NCBI GenBank assembly: GCA_945860705.1
Contig: CAMART010000003.1
Coordinates: forward strand, 62,001-126,000
DNA: 64,000 bases
Reading direction: 5' to 3'
From: Chitinophaga pinensis
GTDB taxonomy: Bacteria; Bacteroidota; Bacteroidia; Chitinophagales; CAMDFR01
Positions 5,252-31,778 of this stretch are shown in pieces; within the stretch, counting starts at the first letter, position 1, and each line of letters starts with the position of its first letter. Made by a program: the position numbers and the translations under genes. A model generated the notes under the pieces. The model had not been told where the DNA came from. It saw nothing but the letters and a program-made list of their open reading frames with translations, and searched no databases.

Positions 5252-5270
5252 AAATAATACATAAAAACAA

Positions 5271-5305
5271 AAAGGGATTTATCAATTGATAAATCCCTTT
5301 TTTAT
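5271..5305. terminator. Bidirectional terminator between purM and lon
   Basis: A perfect 13-bp stem (AAAGGGATTTATC at 5271-5283 with its complement at 5288-5300) closes an AATT loop. It has T runs on both strands and lies between two convergent genes, so it can stop transcription from either side. Confidence 0.9.
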
Positions 5306-17296: not shown

Positions 17297-17530
17297 TTAT
17301 TTCTTATTAAGTAATAAGTCACTTAATTCTATTTGCATACCATCTGCTAATTCTTTTAGATAAACAATAGATGGATTTATATATCCTTTTTCTAATCTAT
17401 TTATATTCTGTCTATCTTTATCTGTAAGCCTTGCTAATTCAGACTGTGTGATATCAAGACTTTCTCTTTTAGATTTAACGAGTTGTCCAATTTCAATTAA
17501 AAAATTTCGCTTATCTTTTTTTGAAATCAT
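17297..17530 (-). CDS. XRE-family helix-turn-helix regulator
   Basis: I place the start at 17530 (MISKKDKRN), giving 77 residues. The frame is open 36 codons further, but that part is hydrophobic and lies in the divergent promoter region. Residues 9-70 form a Cro/C1-type domain: IGQLVKSKRESLDITQSELARL, then DRQNINRLEKGYINPSIVYLKELADGM. It is divergent from the split lipoprotein gene, with about 100 bases between the starts that hold a perfect 7-bp inverted repeat (17565-17584), so control of both directions is likely. No toxin partner is adjacent. Confidence 0.85.
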   Translation of the reverse strand: MISKKDKRNFLIEIGQLVKSKRESLDITQSELARLTDKDRQNINRLEKGYINPSIVYLKELADGMQIELSDLLLNKK

Positions 17531-17564
17531 TAAAAGCGAAATTGATATATAGTATGAAAAAAAA

Positions 17565-17584
17565 TGTAATCGTACTTGATTACA
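17565..17584. promoter_or_regulatory. Candidate operator, TGTAATC-N6-GATTACA
   Basis: A perfect inverted repeat with 7-base arms and a 6-base spacer lies in the divergent region between the XRE regulator and the lipoprotein gene. Size and symmetry fit a dimeric Cro/C1-type repressor. Assignment to the neighbouring regulator is inferred from position. Confidence 0.55.
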
Positions 17585-17636
17585 AAAAATAATATTTATA
17601 TCTTGTATTAATATTGTTAACATAAATAAAAAAAAC

Positions 17637-17942
17637 ATGAAAAATTTAAAATTTTTGTTTGTACTTATTTTTATAATAAGTATATTTAGTTGTAGAAAAG
17701 ATATTCAAAAATCTTATGTAGAAAAATCAATAAAGAAACTTACTTATACAAGCAAAAAAACAAATGAATCAAATAAAACAATTTCACAAATTAATTACGA
17801 ACTAGTTGATGGTCGATTAAAATTTGAGAATAAAGAAGATTTTAATGATATGCTCATAGGATTAGATAATGAAGTATTGGATGATTGGGAAGGAAGTATA
17901 GGTTTTACATCTTATAGAACTAGTACTAATAAGGAAGTATAG
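17637..17942 (+). CDS. Lipoprotein, N-terminal part of a gene split by a 41-bp duplication
   Basis: The 101-residue product has a lipoprotein signal (IISIFSC, Cys19) and ends in a premature TAG inside the second copy of a perfect 41-bp tandem repeat. Removing one copy puts this frame in register with the downstream frame at 17972 and gives a single protein of about 372 residues. The region around WEGSIGFTSYRT, joined to LNGNGIIQVSPFIFKL from the second part, resembles Bacteroidota surface lipoproteins that I know only as domains of unknown function. As it stands, only a truncated lipoprotein would be made. Confidence 0.7.
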   Translation: MKNLKFLFVLIFIISIFSCRKDIQKSYVEKSIKKLTYTSKKTNESNKTISQINYELVDGRLKFENKEDFNDMLIGLDNEVLDDWEGSIGFTSYRTSTNKEV

Positions 17943-17971
17943 GTTTTACATCTTATAGAACTAGTACTAAT
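17890..17971 (+). repeat. Perfect 41-bp tandem duplication causing a frameshift
   Basis: Bases 17890-17930 and 17931-17971 are identical over 41 bases. Because 41 is not a multiple of three, the second copy shifts the frame and brings a TAG at 17940-17942. With one copy, codons run on from ACT AGT ACT AAT directly into ATG GAA GAA at the start of the downstream frame. Confidence 0.97.
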
Positions 17972-18796
17972 ATGGAAGAAGCATTAGATGATGCATTAGA
18001 AAGTGAAACAGAACTAAACCTAAGTGATAGACAGCTTGCTTCTGTACTAAATGGAAATGGAATAATTCAGGTAAGTCCATTTATTTTTAAATTAATACCA
18101 GAAACTAGAACAGTATTAGTATTGGACGAAGTAAATATTTCAAATTTGAGCCTTTTACAAACATCTACTACTGCTAATAATGATGCATTTATTTTTGAAT
18201 ATTCATTTGATGAAGATGTGTTTGATGAACTAGAAGCTCAGCCAGACCCTAGCTCCAGAACTAGTGCGAGGCAAGGTTGTAATGATAAATATGCTAGAGC
18301 TAGTACAGATAAATATAATAACGAAGAGTCTTGTGGTTGGATATATGTGTCTGGAGCAAATAGAAAATTTAAATATTGGGCAAAACTAGATTATAATAGT
18401 GCTGGAATCAATAAAAAATTCTTTTTAGATATTAAAAGAAGACAAAGAACTCATACAAGTGCTTGGAGAAAACCTTGGGCAGCTACAAATGTAGATTTTA
18501 CGGCTCAATGGGCATATTGTACTAGATGTGGAGCTGAAAGTACAGGAGAATGTCCATCACCACAAACTGTAGAATCAAGTATTCATACAAAATTCAATCC
18601 ATATAGAACTTCAGTACCTGGTATAACAGGTACTTTATATTATTGGTCTAATGTAACCGATAGAGAATACGTATTCTATAGAGGAACAAGGTCGTTAAAA
18701 TCATATTATGCAAGAGCACAAACTAAATATTATTCGTGTGAAGGATCTATACTAGCGCCAAGTACAAGATATTTGTTAATAGAAGATTATAATTAA
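17972..18796 (+). CDS. C-terminal part of the split lipoprotein gene
   Basis: This 274-residue frame opens with the ATG just after the second 41-bp copy, 29 bases past the premature stop. It has no signal peptide of its own and is best read as the lost C-terminal part of the lipoprotein; reinitiation at this ATG is possible but would leave the product in the cytoplasm. It has LNGNGIIQVSPFIFKL at the start, then a cysteine-containing region (QGCNDKY, ESCGWIY, YCTRCGAESTGEC). Its stop is 3 bases before the next start, so it is in an operon with the beta-barrel gene. Confidence 0.7.
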   Translation: MEEALDDALESETELNLSDRQLASVLNGNGIIQVSPFIFKLIPETRTVLVLDEVNISNLSLLQTSTTANNDAFIFEYSFDEDVFDELEAQPDPSSRTSARQGCNDKYARASTDKYNNEESCGWIYVSGANRKFKYWAKLDYNSAGINKKFFLDIKRRQRTHTSAWRKPWAATNVDFTAQWAYCTRCGAESTGECPSPQTVESSIHTKFNPYRTSVPGITGTLYYWSNVTDREYVFYRGTRSLKSYYARAQTKYYSCEGSILAPSTRYLLIEDYN

Positions 18797-18799
18797 TAT

Positions 18800-19585
18800 A
18801 TGAGATTATTTTTATTAGTTATTTTAACATCATACTCAGTTTTTTGTGCAGAAGCACAAAAAACTGAGTATGGTATTTTGATGAATTATGGGGTAAATTA
18901 TACAACTAATAAAGTGGTATTTTCAGACTTAACAAACAATTTTAAAGCATATAATGTCCCTAATTTCAAGTTTCAATTTGGCGCATATATCACATTGAAA
19001 AATCACTATCATATCGAATGTAACTATAGGTGGGCTATAATTTCTATAGGATATAAATATAGTCGCATACTAAATTTGGAAAAAGGTGTTCATTCTTCAA
19101 GAACATATAGTCCACATAATAACTTTAACGTATTATTTGGTTATAATATTTTTAATAAGAAGTTATCAATAATGCCATATATAGGTATTAATTATATGTT
19201 TGATAATAATTATAATACTATTAGGGGAGGTTATTCTAGAAGTGGTGGCGAAGTATATGATTCTACAGGTACTATACTAATCAGTTCTGATTCTGAAGGT
19301 AATGATAGTGCTTATATGCCTAGAAAAGATATATTTGGTGTAGATATGGGTATTAGATTAAACTATAAAATAAAGATGATAAATTTCATGTTTAATATTG
19401 GCTATACACAAGGATTAAGTACTTATTTTTATGGAAGATACTATAGTCATGAATACAGAAGAGAACCATATCTAAATACAGGAATGTTTAAACATTTACT
19501 AAAAAGTAATTCTTCTTATTTATATATGACAGCAGGTATATCACTTAATATAGGATATTGGATTAAAAGGAAAAGTAATACTTAA
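18800..19585 (+). CDS. Outer-membrane beta-barrel-like protein
   Basis: The 261-residue protein has a signal peptide ending near AEAQ (residue 20). The mature part has alternating strands rich in Tyr, Asn and Gly (for example HIECNYRWAIISIGYKYSR and MINFMFNIGYTQGLSTYFYG), typical of small Bacteroidota porin-fold proteins. It lies 3 bases after the split lipoprotein gene and is probably its partner at the outer membrane. A perfect 17-bp inverted repeat lies within the signal-peptide codons (18833-18870). I do not recognise a specific family. Confidence 0.7.
   Translation: MRLFLLVILTSYSVFCAEAQKTEYGILMNYGVNYTTNKVVFSDLTNNFKAYNVPNFKFQFGAYITLKNHYHIECNYRWAIISIGYKYSRILNLEKGVHSSRTYSPHNNFNVLFGYNIFNKKLSIMPYIGINYMFDNNYNTIRGGYSRSGGEVYDSTGTILISSDSEGNDSAYMPRKDIFGVDMGIRLNYKIKMINFMFNIGYTQGLSTYFYGRYYSHEYRREPYLNTGMFKHLLKSNSSYLYMTAGISLNIGYWIKRKSNT
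18833..18870 (+). repeat. Perfect 17-bp inverted repeat in the signal-peptide codons
   Basis: Bases 18833-18849 are the exact reverse complement of 18854-18870, with loop AGAA. In mRNA this is a long uninterrupted hairpin that starts 33 bases after the start codon, in codons for about residues 12-24 of the beta-barrel protein. No T run follows, so it is not an ordinary terminator. Confidence 0.95.
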
Positions 19586-19647
19586 TTAGATATAACTATA
19601 GACTTATCATTTTGACAATGTTAAGTATAATAACTTCATCAACAATT

Positions 19648-19695
19648 TTCAAATCCGCTAATTATCAAATCTGCTAATTATCAAATCTGCTAATT
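19648..19695 (+). repeat. Three 16-bp tandem repeats
   Basis: The unit ATCAAATCTGCTAATT occurs at 19664-19679 and 19680-19695. A copy with two differences (19648-19663) precedes them. The array ends 4 bases before the stop codon of the HPPD gene and lies between convergent genes. Confidence 0.9.
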
Positions 19696-19698
19696 AGA

Positions 19699-31448: not shown

Positions 31449-31457
31449 TAAAATAAA

Positions 31458-31778
31458 AGATGCCTCCTTCCTCGGCATTTCAAAATGTAATTTCATTATC
31501 ACAATTAGTTTGTCATTCTGACGAAGGAAGAATCTAATAGTATATCAATCAAATTATAGATGCCTCTTTCCTCGGCTTTCAAAAGGAATATATTATCGCA
31601 ATTAGTTTGTCATTCTGACGAAGGAGGAATCTCTATTAATTTCAAGTAAAAAAGATGCCTCTTTCCTCGGCATTTCAAAAAGCAAATATTTTATTACATT
31701 ATGCTTGTCATTCTGACGAAGGTAGAATCTAATAATATGTATTTCAAAGTTAGATGCCTCCTTCCTCGGCATTTCAAA
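31458..31778. repeat. Alternating inverted-repeat (REP/BIME-like) array of seven elements
   Basis: Element A (starts AGATGCCTC, ends CATTTCAAA, 26-27 bases) lies at 31458, 31558, 31653 and 31752. Element B (starts TTGTCATTC, ends GAATCT, 26 bases) lies at 31510, 31607 and 31705. B resembles the reverse complement of A, so neighbours can pair. They strictly alternate A-B-A-B-A-B-A with spacers of 20-25 bases. Similar sequences are, from memory, common between genes in Bacteroidota genomes. Confidence 0.88.

Follow-up and report, generated by a model that had tools for sequence, protein, structure and literature searches.

A perfect inverted repeat with 19-nt arms lies at the signal-peptide end of an intact gene for a predicted outer-membrane barrel protein, within the window of 64,000 nucleotides (the whole stretch of DNA that was analysed). 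The hairpin is genuine and statistically exceptional for its genome. It is probably a palindrome confined to its lineage and of a mutational type already known, and we favour, with confidence that is about evenly balanced, the reading that template switching during replication (quasi-palindrome correction) created it or made it perfect. This reading is preferred because the hairpin length is far outside chance, the arm is unique and all four homologues (4/4) are devoid of the hairpin.

The left arm (18831-18849, forward strand) and the right arm (18854-18872, forward strand), its exact reverse complement, enclose a 4-nt loop, AGAA (18850-18853, forward strand). The original prediction had described a perfect inverted repeat with 17-nt arms at 18833-18870. 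This repeat is present, and represents the inner part of the longer one. The start assigned to it, 33 bases after the ATG, is correct for the 17-nt version, but the full arms begin 31 nt past the A of the ATG, and the hairpin spans positions +31 to +73. RNA folding yields 21 consecutive pairs, one of which is a G-U pair, and arms of 24 nt are 92% complementary. The hairpin lies within codons 11-25 of an uninterrupted 261-codon ORF (18800-19585), and the residues encoded across it (S-Y-S-V-F-C-A-E-A-Q-K-T-E-Y-G) make up the last part of the signal peptide and the beginning of the mature chain. The arms had been said to code for the end of the signal peptide; they do so, but the hairpin also covers the start of the mature protein.

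The 261-aa product of this gene (18800-19585, forward strand) is a predicted outer-membrane barrel protein with a signal peptide, as suggested by a structure model, structural matches and syntenic homologues. Searches of Pfam and NCBIfam gave no family matches for the protein. The model, which is of low confidence (mean pLDDT 52.6), features a signal helix followed by strands, and the structures that match it best are those of small outer-membrane barrels such as the OprF N-domain (Z 10.4), NspA (Z 10.3) and OmpA (Z about 10). The beta-barrel label proposed earlier is supported solely through this low-confidence model and its matches.

The frequency of perfect stems with loops of 3-12 nt was surveyed in 42 stretches of the same genome, including the discovery window. 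The stretches cover 884 kb of 2,939 kb (30%) and contain 741 mechanically called, ATG-started ORFs with a minimum length of 100 aa. Perfect hairpins in coding DNA number 208 at 8 bp, 67 at 9 bp, 18 at 10 bp and 5 at 11 bp. Above this length, coding DNA contains one 13-bp hairpin and the 19-bp hairpin described here, which is the sole coding case longer than 13 bp. By our own extrapolation of this series, about 5e-4 hairpins of at least 19 bp are expected in the sample. Non-coding hairpins reach 22 bp in the same 884 kb, and many of those listed look like terminators. When the codons of 630 ORFs (743,996 bases) were shuffled, a 19-bp stem was reached in 0/200 shuffles, and the maximum, 18 bp, was observed one time. 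Synonymous codons were also redrawn according to the codon usage of the window, with the first 36 residues of the protein kept fixed; stems of 19 bp were obtained in 36 of 20,000 draws (0.18%), and about 2% of the draws gave 14 bp or more. The predicted fold is similarly extreme. A 131-nt segment at the hairpin folds at -36.5 kcal/mol vs -18.1 (sd 3.0) in 200 shuffles, none of which is as good, and the 5' end of the barrel gene (110 nt) folds more strongly than that of any other among 720 ORFs (-35.4 vs a mean of -15.0 kcal/mol, sd 4.4). The earlier assertion that a chance match is very unlikely is thus borne out by the shuffles, the genome survey and the codon redraws. An inherent self-complementarity of signal-peptide junctions is not supported, as complementary codons occur at 16/135 junctions of signal-peptide ORFs vs 71/585 other ORFs, with no general enrichment.

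The arm is present in a single copy in its own genome, apart from the partner arm; five other matches were found, each with 3 mismatches. The full hairpin occurs in only one of 198 genomes of the order, its own, even when up to 3 mismatches are allowed. Several classes of elements were examined and set aside. Dispersed repeats and mobile palindromes of the REP or in-frame RPE type are ruled out, since they require many similar copies and the arm is single. An insertion of the in-frame RPE type was also rejected, as there are no extra residues and the length of the signal peptide is like that of homologues. The target hairpin of a diversity-generating retroelement (DGR) is also ruled out, because the genome contains no template repeat for window positions 18200-19000. 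The best genome match to this segment, the place itself and the opposite strand of the hairpin aside, is 26 bases long (93%, E 0.013), and RVT_1 matches lie elsewhere in the genome, on C16. A phage or viral origin was rejected on the lack of matches to positions 18700-18950 in phages and to the hairpin pattern in viral_contigs. Nothing in Rfam exceeds the gathering score; four sub-threshold matches to miRNA hairpins were found (22.6-28.9 bits vs thresholds of 60-95).

Searches with the barrel protein identified its own genome only, among 99 genomes, and zero direct relatives in genome_contigs. Syntenic pairs in G002 and G028 were found by using the upstream ORF, which belongs to a lipoprotein gene, as query, and a profile of three barrels, run against 298 genomes, revealed a fourth barrel in G073 (E 2.8e-49). 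An alignment of the lipoprotein matched two loci in genome_contigs, one on a Saprospirales MAG contig (40,102 bases) and one in a Saprospiraceae MAG (L058), the latter with a barrel-like gene downstream of the lipoprotein gene. The lipoprotein and barrel genes are paired in 5/5 genomes in which the lipoprotein locus was opened (its own, G002, G028, G073 and L058), a count that does not extend to G265, where the lipoprotein matches weakly (E 3.0e-6), or to matches above E 0.001. G002 carries the lipoprotein gene in tandem duplicate (L010 7604-9890), and the barrel gene follows one copy only.

The barrel proteins of G002, G028, G073 and L058 are 16%, 21%, 18% and 20% identical to the window protein, and the longest perfect stems within the initial 110 nt of their genes measure 7, 6, 6 and 5 bp, respectively. 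The comparison with homologues suggested along with the original prediction therefore yields four of four genes without the hairpin, at a divergence too large for the arms to be aligned base by base. Judged from these sequences, deep conservation of the hairpin is refuted, and a recent function or history is outside the reach of homologues of 16-21% identity. A small-RNA or regulatory site that is conserved likewise finds no support, as 0/4 homologues keep the hairpin and only sub-threshold miRNA hairpins were found in Rfam. The length of the signal peptide in the window is similar, by visual comparison in alignment A4, to that in G028, G073 and L058, which makes a rewriting of the sequence more likely than an insertion of the palindrome. 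Both arms fit the protein family, one as the end of the signal peptide and the other by an aromatic residue in the first strand, and neither looks foreign.

The locus is disturbed on both sides of the barrel gene. Upstream, the lipoprotein gene is broken into two frames because a perfect 41-bp tandem duplication (17890-17972, forward strand; two copies, 42-nt self-match) shifts the frame. The 5' fragment (17637-17942, forward strand) corresponds to positions 3-104 of the family model, and the 3' fragment (17972-18796, forward strand), in the other frame, to positions 94-286. The split gene is either a recently formed pseudogene or a switch that slippage can reverse. A 16-bp tandem repeat of 3.3 copies (19644-19696) is located just 3' of the barrel gene, and the gene beyond it is, as we take it from reading its sequence, hppD-like. 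Perfect tandem arrays with a period of 15-150 number five in the 884 kb; two of the five flank the barrel gene, and one of these breaks the upstream gene. This suggestive clustering is a post hoc observation and has no formal statistical weight. A scan of four proteins for defence families gave matches only for the helix-turn-helix gene at 17297-17638, which we read as generic HTH matches. The source genome may be a metagenome assembly. Elsewhere in the window, a perfect 34-nt intergenic palindrome, AAAAAGGGATTTATCAATTGATAAATCCCTTTTT, is found at 5269-5302 and is probably a two-way terminator, and a 97-bp unit repeated 3.3 times (79% matches) at 31451-31778 contains TTTGTCATTCTGACGAAGGAAGAATCT.

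Template switching would proceed in a few steps. A nascent strand would fold back on a partly self-complementary stretch within the signal-peptide codons, one arm would be copied from the other, and synthesis would then return to the true template, which would leave exactly complementary arms with no clear change in length. The protein would tolerate the change because signal peptides and first mature residues accept many sequences. The transcript is expected to carry the hairpin from 31 nt after the start codon, and the effect on expression would be at most modest and non-conserved. That the sequence was probably rewritten rather than inserted, that the locus bears other marks of replication slippage, and that a second coding palindrome of this kind occurs in relatives (described below) were all counted in favour of template switching. 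Against it, the nearest homologues are so distant that the origin is beyond reconstruction, neither arm has a foreign appearance, and the proposed seed, a set of complementary codons, is not generally enriched at signal-peptide junctions. Template-switch repair of an imperfect palindrome had been listed in the original prediction, and is the best-supported reading of a repeat that is non-random, genome-unique and absent in the four homologues; the imperfect precursor is the part that we infer. Ribosome blocking, an RNase site and operon regulation, also listed there, may still apply in this one lineage, and a distance of 34 nt from the upstream stop codon leaves room for a leaky terminator.

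Events of this kind are known from other organisms. In E. coli, the replicative polymerase templates on the nascent strand and makes quasi-palindromes more perfect (PMC7202029). Perfect stems can come from single template switches (PMC8794818), and 39 protein-coding genes of yeast were rewritten through template switching (PMC8604942). The hairpin resembles the products of quasi-palindrome correction in E. coli, yeast and primates in its short, perfectly paired arms and small loop, in that such repeats may occur in coding DNA, and in that length is kept. It differs in that neither a precursor nor a mutant/wild-type pair is at hand, and the event is deduced from its product. Many perfect inverted repeats, up to 284 bp long, are present in translated genes of Nematomorpha mitochondria (PMC6649704), and in the discussion of that paper template switching is brought up as a way in which they may have arisen. 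The likeness to these is the perfect inverted repeat inside a translated gene; in contrast to the many Nematomorpha repeats, the 884 kb of bacterial sequence surveyed here contain a single coding one of 19 bp. If template switching is the correct reading, the barrel gene provides a clean bacterial case of a replication error that rewrites several adjacent codons and leaves the gene open, a kind of change easily taken for selection.

The main functional rival, which we regard as unlikely, is that the hairpin, which would then overlap the start of the barrel gene, serves the lipoprotein gene upstream as a leaky intrinsic terminator or attenuator. Unless reinitiation at 18800 is prompt, the hairpin would form, RNA polymerase would stop and less barrel transcript would be made; a terminator would then be hidden within a signal peptide. 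The stem begins 34 nt past the upstream stop (18796), has a 4-nt loop, 19-21 pairs and the tail GTATTTTG, and is terminator-like in a pattern scan. Bacterial inverted repeats are located 50-80 nt past stop codons, with spacers mainly of 4-5 nt, in a published survey (PMC13155455), and this pattern of location and spacer was counted in favour of termination. The tail was compared with 56 hairpins of at least 12 bp lying within 80 nt of a same-strand stop codon in the 884-kb sample. Seven T residues are present in the 14 nt scored; as few or fewer are found in 14/56 comparable hairpins, but 42/56 have more, and the median distance from stop codon to hairpin in this set is 20.5 nt. The hairpin is thus similar to intrinsic (Rho-independent) terminators in being a stem-loop with a 4-nt loop soon after a stop codon, and dissimilar in its mediocre U-tract, which has no clean U-run, and in its location within the coding region of the next gene. 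The gene that contains it is, moreover, intact and conserved, and the hairpin is missing from homologous gene pairs. Under either template switching or termination, no new class of system is involved.

Ordinary substitutions may also have made the arms complementary by a coincidence of codon choice, with no special mechanism or function, a possibility to which we assign low probability. The synonymous redraws speak for it, since 0.18% of the 20,000 draws reach 19 bp and about 2% reach at least 14 bp with the protein fixed, and so does the fact that the hairpin was chosen as a striking item of one window, out of a set of windows of unknown size; the codon shuffles (0/200) and the extrapolated length series (about 5e-4 in the sample) speak against it. 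More doubtful still is a selected translational or RNA-processing element, in which the hairpin would slow the first ribosome or act as an RNase site and thereby, in this lineage, adjust export or the stoichiometry of the operon. Its top rank for 5'-end folding among 720 ORFs is consistent with such a role, whereas the failure of all four homologues to keep the hairpin and the lack of above-threshold Rfam families argue against it. Least probable is a young translation-coupled attenuator in the signal peptide: the broken lipoprotein gene would reduce ribosome flow, the hairpin would form and the barrel gene would be off, and since the 41-bp duplication could be reversible by slippage, the two genes would be phase-variable together.

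A comparable coding palindrome was found in relatives. Their sample consists of 60 stretches (1.11 Mb) with 750 ORFs of at least 150 aa, from which the overlapping L010 and L057, derived from one contig, were left out; an earlier count had included them. Also outside the sample, because of the 150-aa limit, is the 13-bp hairpin that L064 carries in an ORF of 139 aa. The longest coding hairpin in this sample, 16 bp, is located at 9431-9465 of L064, in a gene of G006 that, from reading its sequence, we take to be leuS, for leucyl-tRNA synthetase. In G050, a genus-mate of G006 (94% identical), the same leuS stretch carries a single mismatch, by which Gln becomes Lys. As far as sequence comparison goes, the pair shows the perfect and near-perfect states of one coding palindrome in sister genomes, and conserved genes can thus contain palindromes of this type; the single-base difference is explained by point mutation as well as by template switching.

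The same leuS site varies in other ways. In-frame nuclease domains are present in the leucyl-tRNA synthetases of two genus-mates, PBECR3 in G026 (L114 1378-1950, E 1.4e-18) and DUF559 in G038 (L115 1400-1840, E 1.5e-39). Both domains are located just before the TTRPDT stretch, at the site of the G006/G050 coding palindrome, and other genomes feature short extra residues there. The site before TTRPDT looks like a hotspot of in-frame insertion.
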